Of a stretch of DNA of 64,000 nucleotides, positions 7,722-61,001 are shown piece by piece; position 1 is the first letter of the stretch; each line of letters starts with the position of its first letter. The notes under the pieces were generated by a model. That model ran no database searches. It was not told the origin of the DNA and saw only the letters and a program-made list of their open reading frames with translations. The DNA is from Quercus robur (taxonomy: Eukaryota; Streptophyta; Magnoliopsida; Fagales; Fagaceae), in the NCBI RefSeq assembly GCF_932294415.1, contig NC_065543.1, positions 44,290,277 to 44,354,276 of the forward strand. The letters run 5' to 3'. The position numbers and the translations under genes are program-made.

Positions 7722-10700
7722 CTACTGCCACGAGGGCTGCTTGTATCCATCCCAACCTCCCTCAGGCTCCTTTCTCTTCAAAAGACCACCTGCAACCTGG
7801 TACATCCTTGCTTGGTCATCTGCTATGGACTGTGAACTGGAAACAGACAGTTGCCTTGGTGGAAGACAAGTCTCATCTCTTGCTTCCAAGTCTAATCCTC
7901 CAGGCCCGGCATTAAGGTCTAAACCCTGTCTTCCCCATTTCCTACTGCTCTCAGCGCTACTGTTGTTTGCATCAGGGAAGCTAACAACATAAGGCTTAGG
8001 AAAATGAGAAGAAACGGTACCAGCAGGTCCTAAAAACTGGGGACGGACTGCAGGGAAGCAAACCTTCCCACCAGATGATGAATCCATGTATGTTGTTGAA
8101 CCACCAGGAAATGCGGCTGATGACAGTGGAAAGGGGGTTCCAAAAGGGAAGACAGGGTATGGAAAAGTGCTGGAGGAAAAGGGCACTGCTGGAGAAGATG
8201 ACAGCACTTGCCCCCTGAAGACATCAGGACTAAATGGACTGCCGCCACCAGTGGTACCCAACATCCTTGGCGGCGCACCACTTGCAACAATTGGGAAAGA
8301 CTGATCCCCTCTATCTGGCATAATAGGCACAGCAGGATAATTGCTTCCTGAAGTAAACCATGGTGAAAAGTTCCCAATTTCTGTATTGTTCATTCTAAGG
8401 CCAGAAACGGATGGTTGGGATGAAAAACCACTCCTGGAATGCAGGCTGAAAGGTGATGGTTCAGCACACACCTCATCAACTAAAGGCCCATTGTTCAAAT
8501 CAAAGTCCCTGCGGCCACTCACTGCACCATTAAGAGCACCACCCGATTGTGACTTAACTTGCGCAAGTGGAATATCCATTCTACGACCGTTGCTGATTGA
8601 GAAATTGCCCATATCAGAAGCATCATCAACTCGGTTCAAATCAAGATCAAGTCCCCCAGAGCCACGAACAGGTTCAGAACATATCATTCCATCACGTGCC
8701 ACGTCATGATTATTTGTTGGGACAGATGAAGAACCTGGCTCCTGAGCAGAAATCCGTGAAGCCAAATCCTCAAGGGCTCTTTCGTCAGGTATATTCAAAT
8801 CAATATCCAACGCAGGGCGACTCTGCTTGCCAGCTGCAGCATCAGGAAGAGGGGCGTTTGCAGTGCCCTGTGGCATTTCTGGAGCTTTCCTGGGTTCAGC
8901 TGGCCGAAAGGCACTAGTGGCTGCTGATCCCTTCCAACCAAGTTCCCCTTTACTCTTCAGCAGGTCATCTGGTGGAACAAACGGGCCCTTTGCAGCAGCA
9001 GCAACAGTAATTGAAGCAGGAAGGCCACTAGACACGGAAGAAACAAGAAAAGGTAATGGACTAACCAATCGAACAGTGGATGAACATGCTGGTGCCGGCA
9101 AGCTATTCGGTTCCCCAAATTTTCCCTCATCCACAGTAAAGCCTTCATTCAAATCAAATTCCACTTTTGCATCCATATCTGATGCCCTGGCAGCAGGCAT
9201 AGAAGTTGCATCTGCATTGGTTGATTTACTTTCCTCTGTGTCAACTGCTTCTGTGCCAGTCCTCTTAGGTCCCCTAGTCATTTCAGGCTGTTCTGTTTCT
9301 TGTGCAGTTAATGCAGGTGAAATCGTGTGAGGAGCTGGTCTAACCTGTTGATCATGACCTGCTTTGCTTTCCGAATTCTCCTCCACGTACTCACCATCAT
9401 GATCAGTGACAGTGGAAGCTAAACCAACTGAAGTTCGATTCTCAGAAGTTGTAGGGTCATTACTTTCCTGCTCATTTCTTTGTTTTTCAGCCTGATTTAC
9501 ATGATTCCTGGCATCTGCTTCATCAATCTTTTCAGCCTTCAGATCTTTTACTTTCTCTGAAGCAATATCTTTCCCACCACCAGAAGGCACCACAACTTCC
9601 TCTTTGGTTCCTTTCACATCTTCCATATGCATCATGGATAAAGGTGGCTTCAGCTCTGTCTGGTTACCACCATCCAGACCTTCAGCTGCTTCCATCTGGA
9701 ACTCTAGAGCAGAAACTACATTGAACTTATCTTCATTCAACAAAGAGCAACTTGTCTTTTCATTTACATCTGGAATGGCATCTGCATTCACCTCACCAAC
9801 TGCCTTTTTCTCCTGAAGTGATTTGACTCCGTCAATATCCATAGTTTTCTCTACAGTGCTCACAGGTGAGGAAGTCATTGAAGCAGCTACTGTTATTTCA
9901 GTAGATTTACCATCACCTTCTACACATGGGTCTACAGTTTGCTGAAAATCCATACAAGAACTACTTAAATGACCATGGTTCTCTCCTGCAGGTTTCTCCC
10001 CAGACAAAGAACAAATAGATGTGCTTTCAACAGTTTTTGTCCCAATATTACAGGAAACAACACCCTGCTTCTCAGGCTCATCACCAGCACCATCATTAGA
10101 CTGGCCTTGGTCTTGAGCAAGGTCGTCTACTGGAGATGATTTAACTTTGGGATCACTACCTGTGCAGGAATGCTCAACTGCAGGGGTGTTCCTTTGCGGA
10201 GAATCAGTAGGTGAAACCAAATCAGACTTCGACATCTCTCCAGCAGCCACACTAGCAAGGAGATTCATCCCAACATCATCCACAATGGATATAGATGCAT
10301 TTCTTTCAGAGTACTTAACACAACTATCAATTAAAGCATTTATGGAGCGCAAAGAAGCCTCCTGCAAATTCCCTGATTTTTGTTCATTCCCTGATGATGA
10401 GGAAGTAGCTTTAGCTTCTGCCAATTTTTTGCTGTCATCTCCAGTCCTGCAGCGCTCTTCATCAGTAACAGCTGCAGGGGATCCATCACCCTCATCAGAC
10501 CCAGTCAGTACATCCTTCAAATCATTACTTTGCCAGGATTCAGTATTCACATCCGAAGTAATATTAGCTCGACAAGTATCGCTCTTTTCTTTCAGGGTAC
10601 GATCAAACTGATCATGCTTCTCTGAAAGCACAGGAGAAGAAGCTCTGCTATTCATGATTGAAGGATCTTCAATTGATCCTCCACTGGCACTTTGTGCAGG

Positions 10701-13700
10701 ACTGCGACTTCGATTTGAAATCTTAACAATCAATTTTTGACTGTTACCCTCAATTGAGGGGCTTTCAAGTGTCTTTTCCAATGACAATCCAGACTGTGAT
10801 AATTTTTCTGAAGCCGGATTTTTGAGCAAGGAACTTTTGATTGAATTTATTTCCCTTTGCGCTCCAGATACAGCTGAACCAGGGAAGCCATTGATTGATT
10901 TTCGATGCCGTGAGTTCTTATTTCCACTCATTGAACCAGCAGTAGAGCTCCTTGCGTCCTCCTTCACTGAATGTCCCCCTGTTTTAGCATGGTCACTAGA
11001 ACATGATTGACTGTTGTTGTGCGACTGACTAGAACTGCTGCTTTTCTCATCCCTTGCTGTTGTCAGAGGGAGATCGGCAGCATTACCAACAGCATTTCGA
11101 GCCTGGCTGTCTCTTAAGTTAGTATTCACTGGTGCAGGTGATGGAACTGATTTTATGGACCCAGGAGATGCAGATGCAGACCTGGTGATACTCTCCCCCT
11201 GGACAATCTTCACAGAAGTAGTTTTGGATGCAGAAAGCTGTGTAACTGAGCTCTTCATTGCAACATCAGACGACATACCTGAGTGTCTATTCCCACCATG
11301 GGAAACTTCAGGAAGGCGTGATCTTGCAGACCAGGGGACAGACTGATTTGAGCCAGACTTCGCATCATTGATGTTCATTTCAGCCTCAACACGTTTCTTC
11401 CATAGGTCAACTAAACCTCTTGCTTTCTTCTGGATTTCCAAGTTCTTATGAGTGCGCAAATGATTCACAGACTTCCCAATGTTGCACATTTGTAAGGCAT
11501 GTAAATTTACAGGCAGCCTATCAAGAGCACGAAGTAAAACCAAGAGAAATTCCTCAACAGTTTTATCACCATCCTTGGGGCCACTACCATCACCAATCTT
11601 CCCTTTATGGACTTCCTGGAGCCATTCATCAAATACAGGCAGACCCCTGAGTTGCACAAACCGAGTAAGGCAATCAAAATCATCCGTGGCAGCTATAACA
11701 CCAGCAAGCATAGACCGCCCAGACAAATCTATTTTTTTATCATTTCTTTCAGGCAGCATGAGCTGCACCAATCTCTCAACACCATCAGAGTCTATTAGCC
11801 CTCCTCTTTCTGTAATTTTTGAAACCTCAGATTTTAAATTGCTTTCCAGTCTAGTATGATTGGAATCCCCATCATCAATTTTTGTAGCACGCTCTCGTTT
11901 GATAGGCTCAGAGCCCTGATCTCCCCGCTCCCTTTTCTTTCCTTTAACTTGAGAAGGAAGGGAAGATGCACTATTCTGGAGACTATCTGAACCAGCTTTC
12001 AACTGCGATGTTGATGTTGGACCACTCATTGGCTTTGGAGATCTGCCACCAGGCTGTAAAGTTGCATGCATTTGTTTCTGCGTCTTATATAACAGCTGAT
12101 CTACCTCTTCCTGTCGTTCCTGTAAAAGAAAATTAATGAATTTCCATTGTGCAAGTAAGAATATTCAGAACTACCCTAAAGAAATAACATATGTAAGCAA
12201 GGAGACGTATCTGCAAGAGCGTTAAAAACTCACATTAATATAATCTTGATCAGTTAGCCACCATAAACACTTGTTTGTAATATCATATACCCGCCGACAC
12301 ACAAATGATGAAATCCCTGATGGAAGTTCAACACCTTTAGGAAGGAATGCGACTTTACACGGATGGAGTAACGATTCAGCAGGAATCGCATCCTTATGAA
12401 AGGAATAAAAGATTTCGTTTGGCGCGGCTTCCAACAGGACGCCTTTGCCAAGCTTTACTTCAGCAGGCCGATAAAGCCAACTCACAGCTAACTTTAGCTT
12501 ATTCTCTTTACTCTGAGTCAATGAACGAATTATTCCAATGAAAGGTGGGGAATCCTGAGGTGGTTTGAAAAGAGCACAGTCACCAACACTAATTTTGCGT
12601 CCGTCCTGAGAAGTGGAGGCAAAAAAAGGAATTAAGGCAGTTATAAATTTGAAGGTCTTGAGAAAACCAAACGCACTTCCACAATCGATGTACATTACAA
12701 ACAGAAGGGCAGAAAGAGGACTTTCATTGGCTAGTTGTAGGCATTATAATGCACTCAGTTTGTCTAAGGAATAATTTCAAATAGTAATAAGAAATCTGGC
12801 AGTCAAAAAAGCAATAACACTTAACTCGTGTCAATCAACGGCTAAAGTAGAAGAATTTGAACTTAGGTGACTTTTTAAGGCCTTTTAACTCCATGCCAGA
12901 AAGCCACCAAGTCTAACCCTTAGCAGTATTACTTAATGCCTATACATACCAATACCAGTGCCAATGCCAAGCAACAATACATACTTCTTCTGTTTTGATA
13001 ATTTCTTGATACACGTCATTAAAATAAACTTATTGAAAGTTATTTAACTTGATACTGTGAACATAAACATATTGATTCAACAAGAATCTACTGCTCCTAA
13101 GCAAGCAACAAATGTCTGCTCCTATGCAAGCAACGAATGTCTCAAAAACATAAAAATATATTATAAGTTTTCTCAACTCAATTGACCGACAATGCATGCT
13201 AACCTTGGTGTATTTTCTGTCATCTAGAATCTAAATATTTACTCCATAAACTAATTGCATTTTTATGTTCACTTAAAAGAAGCTGTTCCTGTGAACGTGA
13301 CCACATTATGATGTTGTTAAGCATTAATAATATTTATATCAGGACATGAGCCAAACAGGTAAAATACCAGTCAACATAGTCCAATATCGTGTCATCTGCA
13401 ATGGCCCATCAACCATATAATATCCTGACCATGAATAAACATCCAGAACTGACACCTAAAACATAAGAACAACCAGATTGTAGAAAAATTTTAATTCCAA
13501 ATGTTTACATAATTTCCCATCAAAAGGAGTTCCCTCCCAAGAGAAATTTAAATCTAAAGGTCATTGCAGAGCCGAAATCCTTCCCTGCACTCATTTAAAC
13601 AGTTCAATAGAAAAACTTTATCCCCACATAACACAAAATAGGTAGAAGATTTCAGCGTTTTCAAAACCCATCAACAGTTAGCCAAAATAGTAGCTTTCAA

Positions 13701-21600: not shown

Positions 21601-24520
21601 ATCTCATGTGCAAAATGATTTCAAAATGCTTGTTTATGTCTTGTATACTTATAAAGTGTTTTTTTTTTAATAAGTAATAAGAGTATTATTAAACAAACTG
21701 TAAAACAAAAGAAAGCAAATATAAGGTGTTCATGATGGTGAACACAAGGAAATGCAACAAACAAACAAACAGCATCAAACAACAAGAAAAAACTTAAAAT
21801 GCAATACTAGGAGAAGCAATAAACTCCAAGATAGTGGAACAATCCAAGAAGCCCCAACACCTAGACCAATCAAATAAAGTCTTCTGGCATAGAGCTTGTA
21901 ATTGAGCCAAGGATTTCTCGGTATCCTCAAAAGAGCGTCGATTTCTTTCCATCCCAACAATCCACATCAAACAACCAAGAACCATATTCCAAATGTCTGA
22001 ATTAAATTTTCCCAGCCAATAGCTCCAACAATACACCAAACTTTCCACAAAGCGTGGCATGACCAATTGGGTCCCAAAGATTTGAAACATATAAACCCAG
22101 AGAGAGTGAGCTACAGGACAATGGAGGAGGAGATGATCCACAGTTTCCTCATTCCGATGGCACATACAACACCGATTCACCAAAATGCACCCCCTAAGTT
22201 TAAGATTATCCAGTGTAAGGATCTGCCCATGAACCGCTATCCACACAAAGAAAGCCACCCTCTTAGGGATCTTAGCTTTCCAAACACCCTTCCATGGAAA
22301 ATTGGAGGCAGCTTCACCCCTCATGTTATGGTAATAGGACTAGGTATCAAACTTGCCATTCCCGTTGAGACACCACTGAGAAGTGTCACTCCCACCACCC
22401 CTAGGGATCCAAGAATGAATGAACTCAAGGAAAGAGAAGGCAGCCTCTAATTTCCTTTCATGAAAATCCCTATGAAATCTCAAATTCCAAATTCTATCAT
22501 TTCCGCCCTCCAGGAAGCATAATACATCAGAAATACAAGCTTCCTTGTCATTAGAACACACATACAGCTAAGAATAGAGCCTTTTAAGTGAGTTATCTCC
22601 CACCCACTTATCATGCCAAAAAAGAATATGAGTGCCATCACCCACCACTAGGGCCACATGTTTGGAGAAATTCTCCCAACCATCATGAATACCACGCCAC
22701 AGACCACATCCATGGGCCCTACTACATATTTTAGTAGTCCGCCCCCCTTGACCCTCTCCATATTTAGTTGCAATAACCCTCCTCCAAAGATGAGAGCCTT
22801 CTCGTCCAAACCTCCATAACCATTTCCCTAACAAGGCTTTATTAAAATGCACCAACTTCCTAATCCCCAAACCCCCCATATCTATCGGTAAAAACACCTT
22901 CTCCCAAGCCACCAAAGGATATTCGAAACACTCCTCTGAAGATCCCCCATAAAAAATTTCTCTGAATTCGCTCCAATCTATCAGCCACAGCTACAGGGAT
23001 GACAAATAATGATAGATAGTACGTAGGAAGGCTAGAAAGAGTACTCTTCAACAAGGTAAGTCTACCCCCCCTTTTATAAATAAAGACGCTTCCAACCTGA
23101 GAGTTTCTTCTCCATCCATTCCAATATAGGATTCCACACAGATGCTGTTTTGTATGGGGTGCCCAGTGGCATTCCCAAGTATTTCATAGGCAGACTACCC
23201 ACCCTACATCAAAGTATACTTACAGTGTACTAGGGCTAATCCCTTTTTTATTTTCTTTTTAATGGAATCTTATTACTAATTAAAAAAAGACTTCAAATTT
23301 TGACAAAATTTTATCTTAAAATTATAAAAAAATTCAAATAACTTTGAAGCAATGACATTTTAATTCATTATTTAAATCTATAGGAAAGGATTTGCCAATG
23401 GCCCTTGACCAAATAGCCCCTCCACCATCCATAAGTATGGGGTACCTATAACAAAAAACCCCAAAAAAAAAGTATGGGGTAGTTCGTGAGGTTGGGGGGG
23501 TTCCAAGCCCCCTTTGGTGAGTGAGTTAATTTACCAAGCACAAGACTGTTTGATAGAAGGATTTGATGCGATAAAAGTAATCATGTAAAACCTGTACTTT
23601 TGTTTTTTGGATAAGTTAGAGAATAATTTATTAGAAAGAAGGATTGCTCAAATGTGAGCTACCTTAAAGAATTACAAACAGACACCGATGAGGTTAAAAC
23701 ATTAATTATAGAACTACAAGAAAGCCCCCCAACCCAAGGACCTATATCAAGCACCTGGGGTTTGTGCTATCAACCCATGGATACCCAGTGTTGTGTTTGT
23801 TTTCATTCATTTCCCACATTTTGATAATTATTAACTATTCTCAAATGTGCCTTTCAAAGGTAAATACCATTTAGCTTATTTGCCTAATCTCTTGAATGAC
23901 TTTAAAACACTTTAATCTTTTTCTTTTTTCCACTTCGGTTGAAGGTCTCTTCAGTGTTAAATGAACATCAAGCATTATCATGTTTCCACCCTTCTATTGC
24001 CACAGATCCATTTCTAATTAACAGACCTTGTTCTTATGGATATTATAATAATTATAAACATAAAAAAAATAAAAAACCAGCTATACGTTACCACTGAGAT
24101 CTAGCTCAAATGACACCTATTCTCCTTGTAAGAACAAGGCAGAGGGTGAGGTATTGGATTCAATACCCATTGGGTGTATGTAATTAAAAAAGGTTGTCCC
24201 AGTAAGTCACACTCCCACTGCTGCAAGCTATAAGGTGTGTGTAATTACCAATTAAAAAAAAAACAGCTATATATCTTATAACATAAAGCCATGAATAATA
24301 AATTATTACGACTACTAAAAGCAATGAGCAAACAGAATGAAGGAACAAGAAAACGCCCCATACCGTAGACAACAGGTTTGTCATCATCTATATTCCTATC
24401 AGCCTCAAAGAACTCTTGCAGAGGGTTCCTTGCTACAGAAGCAGCTGCAGCTGTTGCATTAGTTGTTTCTGATTTAGCCGCTGCAAACAGTGTTCTCCCA
24501 AAAATTCTTGACAATAGCAT
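18672..24520 (-). CDS. MRPL47: Mitochondrial ribosomal protein uL29m (mL47), L29 family
   Basis: This is a nuclear gene for the large-subunit mitoribosome protein of the L29 family, 140 aa (Arabidopsis homologue about 144 aa). Exons on the minus strand are 24520-24364 ([10 protein letters not shown] to VVYG), 21470-21313 ([20 protein letters not shown] to NPERIPK) and 18779-18672 ([20 protein letters not shown] to MINAL and stop). Phases join correctly (157+158+108 nt). The first 30 or so residues are Ala/Ser/Arg-rich and lack acidic residues except one, as expected for a mitochondrial presequence. Residues about 53-105 carry the conserved [14 protein letters not shown] and [14 protein letters not shown] signature. 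An in-frame GTG lies four codons upstream of the chosen ATG and is unlikely to be used. Both introns are long (2893 and 2533 bp), and the first contains a LINE and a SINE. Confidence 0.93.
21659..23213 (-). mobile_element. 5'-truncated L1-type LINE in intron 1 of MRPL47
   Basis: Minus-strand translations give the C-terminal part of a plant L1 reverse transcriptase ORF ([58 protein letters not shown]). They then give the zf-RVT domain ([38 protein letters not shown]). The frame is broken by at least one stop and several shifts. The 3' end is marked by an A tail (T run at 21659-21669). Flanks share an imperfect 13-16 bp target duplication, GTATACTTATAAAGTG at 21643-21658 and GTATACTTACAGTG from 23214. 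It inserted in the same transcriptional sense as the host gene. Confidence 0.9.
24086..24263 (+). mobile_element. tRNA-derived SINE in intron 1 of MRPL47
   Basis: The A box TAGCTCAAATG and a B-box-like GGATTCAATACC are about 45 bp apart, and the segment ends in an A run at 24254-24263. CAGCTATA at 24078-24085 and 24264-24271 is a candidate target duplication, extended by upstream A runs. It is the same family as the element in SUO copy A intron 1, and is oriented antisense to MRPL47. Confidence 0.65.
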
Positions 24521-28181: not shown

Positions 28182-29486
28182 TTTTTTTTAGGGTAAATTG
28201 CAAATTACACCCCTGAAGTTTGGGGTCGATTGGATTTTACACTCCAAAGTTTTAGAAACTTGATTTTACACCCTGAAGTTTGGTTCCGTTAGCAATTCAC
28301 CCCCCACGGTTAGTTTCTGCTGTTAAGTGACACATCATCATGCTAATGTATTTTATTTTTGCCAAATCAGCCACAAAACTACGTCGTTTTAGTGATGACC
28401 AAATGAAGAGCTGGCATACATCAAAACTACGTCGTTTTATTAATAAACTTAAAACAAAAATTTCTAGCCTAAACGACAGGCTAAATTCTAAAATCTAAAA
28501 ACAAAGACCACGAAGAACTAACACCTCCCTAGCCCAAACCCCACGAACCCAATCCTCCCTAAACCAAGCCCCTCGACTCCGACTGAACTCAGATAGACCA
28601 TCGGCTCACATCGTGAACCCAGGAAGCGGCAGTGAGCCAGTGACGGCAGCGGCCACACCGATAGTGAGCTGCTCTTCTCTTTCTCTTTTCGAATTTGGCT
28701 TGTGTAATCTTAATTCCTACTTCCCAACATTAAATCGTGGCATCGCACCGATACAACAATAAATTAAAACCATTGGAAAAACGAAATTGAAAAATATTTA
28801 CTTCATTTCGTGGCCACTGCCAGTGAGGTGTGTAAATATTCAGTCATATTTGTGTTGATTTTTTCAATGACATTTTGGGTTGTGGTTTTGAAGTTTTTCA
28901 TGTTGGCTGTTAAGATTGAATTCCTATTATTTGGGAAGATGCTATTTGTTTATATGGGGGGTAAATGATCTGAAATTTAGAACTTTCTGTGATAGTTTAT
29001 AGTTATGCATAGTAGGTGTTTGTCAAAATGTTTGTGCCAGTCTGTAGTGATAACTGTACAGTCAAAGCAATATTATTTGCTTTGGTTTTATTGCAAAATT
29101 AACTTGAAGAAAGAAAGAAAATTGAGTTTAATTTTATCTTCACTGCTAAATTATATATTCGAAACATCATAAATCCAAAAAAAAAAAAAAAAAATTGAAC
29201 TAGAATAATTATTATTTGTGCATAATATTGGTACCCTTTTTATAGCTCCAGTTTACAACAAGTCTTGTAAACTACAGGAATAAAGTTAAGGGATCGACTA
29301 TTATGCACTTGGTAAATTAATAGTCTTAGAGTCTCAGGATCACATTATTTATTCATTGCATTCTAACTACATACCAACACTTTTCTTATTGAAATTTCTG
29401 TTGGCATTGCATGGAAAATGTAGACGACCCCTACTTTAAGTCTTGCTTCATTTTTTTATTGCCAAAGTATTTTTGTTTCATCACAG

Positions 29487-31114: not shown

Positions 31115-32111
31115 GTTCAAATAATAATTATTCTAGTTCAATATATATATATATATATATATTGGGTTTATGATGGTTCCAAGATTTCATTATGCAATGA
31201 AGATAAAATTAAACTCAATAAAACCAAAACAAATAATATTGCTTTGACTGTATAGTTATCACTACAGGCTGGCACAAACATTTTCACAAACACCTACCGT
31301 GCATAGCTATAAACTATCACAGAAAGTTCTATATTTTAGATAATTTACCACCCATATAAACAAATAACATCTTCCCAAATAATAGGAATTCAATCTTAAC
31401 AACCAACATGAAAAACTTCAAAACCACAGCCCAAAATGTCATTGAAAAAATCAACACAAATATGACTATATATTTACACACCTCACTAGCAGTGACCACG
31501 AAATGAAGCAAATGTTTTTCAATTTCATTTTTCCAATGGTTTAAATTTACTATTGTATTGGTGTGATGCCACGATTTAATGTTGGGAAGTAGGAATTAAG
31601 ACTACACAAGCCAAATCCGAAAAGAGCGAAAGAGAGGAGCAGCTCACTATTGGTGTGGCCGCCACCGTCACTGCTGCCGCCTGGGTTCTTCGCCGCTGCC
31701 CCCTGGGTTCACGAGGAGAGTTGATGGTCTATCTGGGTTCAGTCTGAGCCAAGGGTTTGGGCTAGGGAGGTGTGAGTTCTTCGTGTTCTTTGTTTTTAGA
31801 TTTTAGAATTTAGCTTGAAACTGTGTCGTCTAGGCCAGAGGTTTTTGTTTTAAGTTTATGCCTAAAACGACGTAGTTTTGATGTATGCCAGCTCTTCATT
31901 TGGTCATCACTAAAACGACGTAGTTTTATGGCTGATTTGGCAAATATAAAATACATCAGCATGATGATGTGTCACTTAATAGCAAAAACTAACCGTAGGG
32001 GGTGAATTGCTAACGGAACCAAACTTCAGAGTGTAAAATCAAGTTTCTGAAACTTTGGGGTGTAAAATCTAGTCAACCCTAAACTTCAGGGGTGTAATTT
32101 ACAATTTACTC
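31115..32111. repeat. Right terminal inverted repeat of the MULE
   Basis: This is the reverse complement of about 28191-29218. Matching blocks include the end (GAGTAAATTG), AACGGAACCAAACTTCAG, AAACGACGTAGTTTTATGG, the GCTGCTC/GAGCAGC region, and CAAATAATAATTATTCTAG at the inner edge. The arms differ by scattered changes, small indels and a TA microsatellite. Confidence 0.85.
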
Positions 32112-32192
32112 TTTTTTTTAAAAGGATTTTTGGCTTTTTTGTTAGCCTACGGCATTTTAAAATTACATTTTTTTTTAGATACAATTATACTT

Positions 32193-58057: not shown

Positions 58058-59790
58058 AACACTATACGCCATAAATTTTGAGACCAACAAGCCTCCGGGT
58101 TCGTCGGAAAATGTTTTCACGATTCAAAGCAAAAAAAGAAAAAAAAAAACCATTTTGCAAATTTGGGAACTATATAATCTTGTTGATTAAAATTAAAATT
58201 AATAACTAATGTAGCATGTCTTTGGATTAATTTTATTTATTTATTTGAAGTTGGCAAAAGTACAGTTGTACATAAAGAAAAGTGGGGTGTTTGAAAATTT
58301 GTACATAAATAAATAAGTTAATAAGTCAATAAAAAAAAGGTAATCAAAATGCTGGATTACATCTTTATAAGGTTCAATGTAAAATGTACACTAAGGGTGC
58401 GTTTGAATTGACTTCAAACTAATTCCGGAAATGATTTTCCGGAAAATTCGGTGTTTGGCTGTCACGGAAAACGTTATTTTCCGGAAAATCATTTCCGGTT
58501 GACCACGAATTTTCCGTTTGACCACGGAAAATGATTTCTGCCTTCATTTTCACTTCATTTCACTTCCGGAAAAAGAGAGAGAGAGAGAGAAGAGAGAGCC
58601 CAGATCAGAGAGAGAGAGGGACGATCGCGCCGCTCGTCCGACGATCGCGCCGCGCCGACGAGCGGCGCGGTGCACGATCGCGATCGTCGATCGAGCGGCG
58701 CGATCGACGAGCGCGCTCATCTCTCGTCGATCGACGAGCGCGTTCGTCGATCGCGATCGTCGACGATCGCGATCGTTCGTCGATCTCGCCTTCGCGATCG
58801 TTCGCGCCGGCGAGATCGCGATCTCGCGAACGCGATCGCGCCGGCGAGATCGCGATCTCGCGAACGCGATCGCGCCGGCGAGATCGCCTTCGCGCCGGCG
58901 GGTTTTCTGGATGTGTTCTGGGTTGTGTTTTCTGATTTGTGTTTTCCTTTCTTCTTTTCCAAACACTAGAAAATATTTTCCGGAAAATTTTTTGAAATGC
59001 AACCAAACACACAGAAATATTTTCCTTTTCCAGAAATTAGCATTTCCGGAAAATATGTATTTTCCGGAAAACGTTTTACGGCAACCAAACACAGCCTAAA
59101 TGACAAATTTTGAGACAAAAAGTCTCCATTTTCGTTGTAAAATGTTTTTAGTTAAAAGTTTATGTCTTTATAAGGTTTAGAGTAAACAAAAAACTTGGAA
59201 AATTTAAGAGTATGATCTTGGAACTATATAGTTTTGGTCTAGACTAGCTTTTTAATCCTTAAAATAGTAGATAGAATTCGTGAAATATTGTTGATTAAAA
59301 TTAAAATTAATAACTAATGTAGTCTAGCGTGCATTTGAATTAATTTTATTTATTTATTTATTTGAAGTTGGCAAAAGTACAGTTGTACATAAAGAAAAGT
59401 GGGGTGTTGAAAATTCATACATAAATAAATAAGTTAATAAGTCAACAAAAAAGGCTAATCAAAATGATAAATTACATCTTTATAAGGTTTAAAGTAAAAT
59501 GTACACTATATGCCATAAATTTTGTGCCCAACAAGTTTCCAGTTTTGTCGTAAAATGTTTTTAGTTAAAAGTTTACATCTTTATAAATAAGGTTCAAAGT
59601 AAGCAAAAAATTTGCAAATTTAAGAATCAGACCTTGGAACTATATAGTCTATTGGACTAGACTAGGTCTTTTGACCTTAAAATAGTAGCTAGAATTCATG
59701 AAATATTGTTGATTAAAATTAAAATTAATAACTAATGTAGCGTGCATTTGGATTAATTTTAAATATTTGAAGTTGGCAAAAGTGCAACAC
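58058..59790. repeat. Tandem array of about 405-418 bp units, split by a MITE
   Basis: TTGTTGATTAAAATTAAAAT followed by AATAACTAATGTAG occurs at 58180, 59288 and 59706. CACTATACGCCATAAATTTT near 58062 matches CACTATATGCCATAAATTTT near 59503. Subtracting the 702-bp element and its 3-bp duplication, the first spacing is 403 bp, against 418 bp for the next. The array therefore pre-dates the insertion. Confidence 0.88.
58395..59096. mobile_element. Tourist-like element with CGATCG-rich core
   Basis: Ends are GGGTGCGTTTG and, reversed, GGCTGTGTTTG, flanked by TAA at 58392-58394 and 59097-59099, as expected of PIF/Harbinger MITEs. The arms carry many TTTTCCGGAAAA words. The core, about 58615-58910, is built almost wholly of CGATCG, GCGATCGC, CGCGCC and GGCGAG words, very unlike the AT-rich surroundings. 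Open frames exist in all six readings only because stop codons are rare in that vocabulary; no protein is implied. Confidence 0.82.
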
Positions 59791-60795: not shown

Positions 60796-61001
60796 ATGGG
60801 AAACTGCCAAGCCATTGATGCAGCAACACTAGTGGTTCAACACACAAGTGGGAAAGTAGACACTTTCTATTGGCCTGTGAGTGCTAATGAGATCATGAAG
60901 ATGAACCCTGGTCACTATGTTGCTCTTCTCATCTCCACCACTTTGTGTCAAACCAGCGACAAAGAAAACTGCCCAGTTAAGAATGAACACAACAATAACA
61001 A

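Follow-up and report, generated by a model that had tools for sequence, protein, structure and literature searches.

We analysed a 64,000-nucleotide stretch of the Quercus robur genome (contig NC_065543.1, positions 44,290,277 to 44,354,276 of the forward strand), hereafter the window, and a 702-bp transposable element within it that carries a CpG-dense core between a 5' arm and a 3' arm. Comparison with sister copies indicates that the element probably belongs to a young non-autonomous PIF/Harbinger (Tourist-like) family of miniature inverted-repeat transposable elements (MITEs). The core of the family, a minisatellite rich in hairpins, is probably remade through gap repair that goes wrong. 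Two clocks can be read in this one young transposon: the arms are about 1% apart, and the core length is different in each of 52 copies.

The element occupies 58395-59096, where the initial annotation had placed it, with TAA on either side at 58392-58394 and 59097-59099. Its parts are as follows.

58392-58394, no strand: target-site duplication (TSD) TAA, left copy; 3-bp duplication flanking the element
58395-58405, plus strand: 5' terminal inverted repeat (TIR) GGGTGCGTTTG, with 9/11 matches to the inverted right end GGCTGTGTTTG
58395-58565, plus strand: 5' arm of type A; subterminal TTTTCCGGAAAA palindromes lie at 58435 and 58477
58425-58447 and 58476-58498: perfect 23-nt inverted repeat in the 5' arm
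58570-58619, plus strand: GA-rich tract, whose length differs among copies
58621-58903, plus strand: CpG-dense core, an imperfect array of tandem and inverted words
58802-58887, plus strand: 34-bp tandem repeat within the core, 2.5 copies, 100% match (Tandem Repeats Finder, TRF)
58904-58960, plus strand: TG-rich tail without CpG, between the core and the 3' palindromes
58915-59096, plus strand: 3' arm of type alpha; TTTTCCGGAAAA palindromes lie at 58976, 59042 (1 mismatch) and 59060
59086-59096, minus strand: 3' TIR, which reads CAAACACAGCC on the plus strand
59097-59099, no strand: target-site duplication TAA, right copy

The 5' end GGGTGCGTTTG agrees with the G(N)5GTT motif given in the available part of PMC2213677, and so does the other end. 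That source requires a TIR to span 14 bp or more, to contain G(N)5GTT and to have at most 4 mismatches in 14; the first 14 bases of the two ends of our element differ at 4 places and thus barely qualify. A longer comparison of the ends gave 9/13 matches, and the clean TIR is 11 bp (9/11). With up to one mismatch, TTTTCCGGAAAA was found five times in the window, every time inside the element (0.55 expected), and the repetition of this palindrome in both arms agrees with what the initial annotation had noticed. The flanks at 58059-59786 form an array of diverged repeat units of about 415 bp (58176-58393 is 88% identical to 59284-59508, and 59105-59381 is 82% identical to 59517-59786), and a paralogous unit therefore shows the insertion site without the element. 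The joined flanks, ACACTAAATGACAAATTTTGAGA, correspond to ACACTATATGCCATAAATTTTGTGC at 59503, where the empty site reads CTATATG and the joined element flanks read CTAAATG.

The core of the window copy is 283 bp long with a GC fraction of 0.70, and contains 80 CpG dinucleotides at an observed/expected ratio (O/E) of 2.31 and only 3 TpG plus CpA. The window as a whole has a CpG O/E of 0.40, and its next best separate 280-bp stretch holds 20 CpG. The core contains 14 copies of CGATCG and the rest of the window a single one; chance would give 0.87 in the whole window, and none of 100 shuffled sequences reached 15. The initial annotation had described the core as made almost only of four words. 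The dense CpG core is real, but the four words cover just 135 of its 283 bases, and exact GCGATCGC was found twice. Given the dinucleotides of the core itself, 14 CGATCG are ordinary (500 Markov sequences: mean 10.2, maximum 20). The repetitiveness of the core exceeds its composition, with 153 distinct 8-mers as compared with 229 expected (minimum 188 in 500 Markov sequences), and so does its self-complementarity (DNA fold z -6.7; 0/200 shuffles as extreme). The core was also considered as a coding sequence and rejected, as the long open frames across it appear to be translations of stop-free CG words, although no family search was made with them. At 702 bp the element is short, and it appears to encode no transposase.

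Sister copies were collected from the genome to which the window belongs (785.7 Mb in 42 contigs). The places studied numbered 69, namely the window and 68 others, of which 39 were chosen by whole-element similarity (best 40 of 1116 candidates scored), 11 by the 5' arm, 6 by the core, 9 via a 37-mer of the 5' arm, 2 via the 5' terminus and 1 because it adjoins a transposase. We extracted 53 copies, the window copy included; analyses of 52 copies leave out L164, whose 3' end is broken. Four copies (L103, L163, L167 and L169) are incomplete, and their longer versions (L182, L179, L180 and L181) stand outside the 52. The 5' arm was 94-100% identical in 40 scored matches (best 40 of 544 candidates). 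The core vocabulary is common to 60 of the 69 places, a share that is biased upward because most places were picked by similarity; eight belong to a sister subfamily and one is coreless. The initial annotation had proposed that ordinary AT-rich cores in sister copies would mark the core as a one-off, and these results clearly indicate that it is not. CGATCG was counted 2-31 times between the arms in each of the 53 extracted copies, where the CpG O/E of the inter-arm stretch was 1.85-2.29. L179-L185 also have the core, as do all 13 places picked by the 5' arm or the 5' terminus. The extracted copies are 527-1028 bp long.

The sister subfamily, type E, accounts for 8 of the 9 places obtained from the 37-mer. 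Its cores are longer, with a weaker CpG O/E of 1.25-1.40 and 0-6 CGATCG, and have no blastn match to the window core. The coreless place, L171 (1399-1665, minus strand), is a 267-bp member of this subfamily with a TAA TSD and represents a natural deletion of the core. Because of its TSD, L171 apparently transposed without a core, although loss of the core after insertion is also possible.

A matching 3-bp TSD was found in 50 of the 53 extracted copies (TAA in 26, TTA in 15 and others in 9). The 300-bp flanks of the 53 copies gave few short or low-level matches among themselves, and the insertions therefore look independent. When termini were counted in the genome with up to 3 mismatches, 156 5' termini and, by the terminal 37-mer, 207 alpha 3' termini were obtained, and reversed controls gave 0. 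The core 16-mer GCGCCGGCGAGATCGC has 176 exact copies in the genome (reversed control, 0). The family is thus homogeneous and high in copy number, in the hundreds and not in the thousands. Among the extracted copies, GCGCCGGCGAGATCGC was present in 32 of 34 with the alpha 3' arm and in none of 18 with the beta 3' arm. The following counts on contigs C1-C6 apply among the matches listed. There, 75 matches of GCGCCGGCGAGATCGC fall into 50 loci, of which 21 lie within 1.5 kb of a 5' terminus or a fetched element, 10 more adjoin an alpha 3' terminus, and the remaining 19 have no listed family terminus nearby; given these 19, the core words may also occur outside the family. Conversely, GCGCCGGCGAGATCGC lies downstream of 18 of 55 5' termini. 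The locus G000:C35:26953273-26954455 holds two alpha 3' termini and six copies of the core 16-mer within 1.2 kb, possibly two adjoining elements or one that is partly duplicated.

Copies whose arms are nearly the same differ in the length of their cores. In 27 copies with a type-A 5' arm and an alpha 3' arm (A-alpha), the arms differ from the consensus by 1.16% (5') and 1.29% (3') with 0 indel columns, while core length varies between 171 and 534 bp and is equal in 0 of 351 pairs. Even in the 30 A-alpha pairs whose arms are less than 0.6% apart, the median core difference was 62.5 bp, and 26 of them differ by at least 20 bp. Over the 52 copies, 52 distinct core lengths were observed. Tandem arrays were detected in all 52 cores (68-100% match), with commonest periods of 20, 34, 11, 40, 27 and 33 bp; the 34-bp period was the best one in 11 arrays. 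Of the 20-mers in the 27 A-alpha cores, on average 80% are shared with another copy and 15% occur there in inverted form; across the 52 cores, 25% of the 12-mers are matched by a reverse complement within their own core, as compared with 4% expected. The suggestion that the core expands like a satellite is therefore borne out in the form of a minisatellite within a transposon, and the family combines variable internal tandem repeats with conserved ends in the manner of variable-number-tandem-repeat (VNTR) elements.

The two arms do not always travel together. Separate clustering of the arms of the 52 copies at 6%, which merges the 5' types A, A' and D, gave 27 A-alpha, 18 A/D-beta, 5 B-alpha and 2 C-alpha combinations. 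Elements of types B and C diverge from the window copy in their 5' arms, by about 15% and 22-24%, respectively, and have a 3' arm that is 98.9-99.4% identical to that of the window copy. Such diverged 5' arms on 3' arms of about 99% identity indicate an exchange of arms across the core. In L102, L154 and L155, on the other hand, a type-A 5' arm (98-99%) is joined to a beta 3' arm (77-79%). In all 7 B/C-alpha elements, the core opens with words that are missing from A-type cores and closes with alpha words, which places the switch point inside the core. With arm exchange of this kind, trees of whole MITEs can mislead.

These features can be put together in one account. The transposase of some PIF-type element would bind the ends and the arm palindromes, and after excision the gap would be refilled from another copy. 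Copying in the self-complementary, hairpin-forming core would slip, switch template and jump to other family members, so that short words are duplicated, deleted or inverted, and now and then a 5' arm and a 3' arm from different subfamilies would be joined. The CpG density would be the state at birth, a CG-containing ancestral seed, GACGATCGCACCGC, having been multiplied, and it would persist because methylation has had too little time to erode the core. The 14-mer GACGATCGCACCGC near the core start is common to type E and the CGATCG types, and is present in 4 of the 8 E copies. When L173 and L176 were each compared with one core, 0 of 500 Markov sequences reached a shared word of 14 nt. A bolder version, which we are more inclined to doubt than to adopt, is that the CpG-palindrome core would serve as a built-in recombination hinge: its hairpins would make template switching in gap repair frequent, nearly every new copy would be recored, 5' and 3' arms would be freely re-paired, and the family would evolve by arm shuffling rather than by whole-element descent.

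For the CpG density, the initial annotation had offered very recent amplification, protection from methylation or selection for the sequence. Decay was scored at positions where a single copy departs from a 13-mer that 3 or more copies share; this count misses clustered changes, and the rates were similar with flanks of 5 and 7 bases. Transitions at CpG were 75/7209 (1.04%) in the core and 12/1481 (0.81%) in the arms (p=0.48; odds ratio 1.29, 95% interval 0.69-2.61), and those at A/T were 2/3992 in the core and 4/9755 in the arms. Core transversions, 20/7209 at CpG and 11/3992 at A/T, represent the background of word variation. Escape from cytosine methylation, by which the core would be CpG-rich as a CpG-island-like stretch, would fit the high O/E of the core, 2.31 in the window copy, and of the 53 inter-arm stretches (1.85-2.29), in comparison with 0.40 in the window. 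However, private C-to-T and G-to-A changes affect CpG in the core and in the arms with similar frequency, and in the core they are about 20 times as frequent as transitions at A/T, so the freedom from C-to-T decay at CpG that marks a CpG island is not seen in sibling cores, and we consider this explanation very unlikely. Since core CpG does not decay more slowly than arm CpG, the counts argue against protection and for recent amplification, which the arms, at 1.2-1.3% from the consensus across 27 copies, also support. A plant transposon may be extremely dense in CpG simply because it is young, and protection from methylation need not be invoked. The transition excess in the arms spans all cytosine contexts, and RNA-directed methylation of MITEs would give an excess of this kind.

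The core may also be regarded as an ordinary minisatellite that changes by in-place slippage or unequal exchange after insertion, independently of transposition. Tandem units in all 52 cores and a length difference in every pair of close copies are what this would produce, but the exchange of subfamily arms with a switch inside the core, and the reuse of inverted 20-mers, need template switching or recombination between copies. We regard in-place change as a rather unlikely explanation by itself, and both mechanisms may act. Selection of the core words as binding sites of a transposase or a host factor could account for the vocabulary shared in 60 of the 69 places, a share inflated by the similarity-based choice. 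On the other hand, the core has no fixed length, with all 52 measured cores differing, it decays like the arms, and the coreless L171 with its TAA TSD apparently transposed, unless it lost its core afterwards. Selection for the core sequence thus finds no support, and we think it unlikely that the words are binding sites. Better candidates for binding by a transposase are the arm TTTTCCGGAAAA words, as invariant sites make up 54 of 69 in the palindromes and 118 of 219 elsewhere in the arms (p=0.0004; one representative per subfamily). Finally, GCGATCGC and CGATCG are words of HIP1 (PMC4390886, in its available part), and a bacterial or cyanobacterial origin, or contamination, would explain them, but the core contains only 2 exact GCGATCGC and family termini are present on all 12 long contigs; we give this origin practically no credence. 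Searches against plasmids and phages gave no match at 1e-5. A single IMG/VR match was rejected as an isolated short chance word in a contig of 70% GC. We also rejected as copies of the element (plant contamination of bacterial genomes) the occurrences of the double palindrome at 61 genome_contigs and 3 viral_contigs loci; blastn of the element with 1-kb flanks against 65 loci gave matches of at most 37 bases.

Several points weigh against remaking of the core by gap repair in a young PIF/Harbinger-type family. Excision and gap repair are deduced from the copies and no such event was observed, and in-place slippage or unequal exchange could likewise alter core length. The copies all come from one assembly, in which errors in hairpin-rich repeats are possible. 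The TIR is short (11 bp with 2 mismatches). A comparison of the best 41 of the 177 PF13359 (DDE_Tnp_4 transposase) matches in the genome with the 100 listed of the 156 5' termini revealed no match and terminus inside one element, and no transposase gene bounded by the ends of the family. The nearest pair among the matches listed is 8.6 kb apart, and its terminus belongs to a separate complete element of 674 bp. Assignment as Tourist-like is accordingly sustained by the TSD and the form of the TIR but not by a transposase with matching ends. Regarding decay, arm transitions at CHG (19/1337 in the 13-mer count) are as frequent as those at CG, and an alignment count of the arms of 27 copies gave 1.2% at CG, 1.6% at CHG, 1.5% at CHH and 0.2% at A/T. 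With only 12 CpG events in the arms, a modest difference between core and arms is possible. In L172, an E copy with an altered GACGATCGCACCGC, the longest shared word is 10 nt and is not significant (45/500). It is plausible, from the one shared 14-mer, that a CG-containing seed was multiplied by duplication and inversion. For plants, the family amounts to a natural experiment in which gap repair, template switching and deamination can be followed.

Other features were seen in the window. Two tandem copies of a gene lie at 6-2873 and 9740-12627 and are 83% identical over 2.9 kb; its BAH and TFIIS-like (Med26) domains were detected in the reading frames of the second copy. A reading frame with a zf-RVT domain at 21794-22339 is a likely remnant of a retrotransposon without long terminal repeats (non-LTR). 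A 1-kb inverted repeat at 28190-29218 and 31118-32112 is 83% identical, with the two units about 1.9 kb apart. The fragment at 35811-36039 matches eukaryotic small-subunit (SSU) rRNA at model positions 1229-1474 of 1831. At 60796-60999, some 1.7 kb beyond the element's right end, the start of a PADRE-domain gene was found.

Several known systems share single features with the oak family, and they are compared here as far as the available parts of the sources go. In MtPH-A5/MITRAV, the TIR start GGGKGYGTTTG agrees with the first 11 bases of our element, and these and Tourist MITEs share the G(N)5GTT motif and the TAA/TTA TSD, but no comparable CpG core is mentioned for them in the part of PMC2213677 considered, in the text of which "GC-rich", "GC content" and "CpG" each occur 0 times. 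The BrickBuilt MITE of Porphyromonas gingivalis (PMC4596501) holds a 23-nt minisatellite between a leader and a tail, but it is bacterial and has one unit length. The microsatellite-associated MITEs of pineapple (PMC8449440) are likewise recently amplified plant MITEs with simple repeats, although there (TA)n is the target outside the element, and they are Mutator-like with a TSD of 9/10 bp. The HIP1 palindromes of cyanobacteria (PMC4390886) share the GCGATCGC/CGATCG words, but HIP1 is a frequent genome-wide word outside any element, while exact GCGATCGC occurs only twice in the oak core. Among the matches listed in the open-licence literature, none reports a plant MITE with a CpG-palindrome core, none for TTTTCCGGAAAA and CGATCGCGATCG is a transposon paper by its title, and none from the Quercus literature has a title on this oak family.

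Judged by analogy with the available part of PMC2213677, the nearest precedent is the group of VNTR elements of MtPH-A6-4 in Medicago truncatula. In that group, 18 of 23 members carry internal tandem repeats of 2-35 units, internal inversions are present, and the authors propose abortive gap repair. The likeness extends to PIF/Harbinger-type ends, 3-bp duplications of TAA/TTA, variable internal repeats and inversions. The oak family does not belong to that subfamily, as neither its 60-bp unit nor the AAACNNCTTATT motif was found in the window core or among the core periods. Two of the 23 MtPH-A6-4 members have a transposase, whereas none was found for the oak family. Furthermore, the repeat unit there is 60 bp, whereas the oak core consists of mid-element CpG palindromes of many periods, and the oak family, in a further difference from MtPH-A6-4, re-pairs the 5' and 3' arms of different subfamilies.
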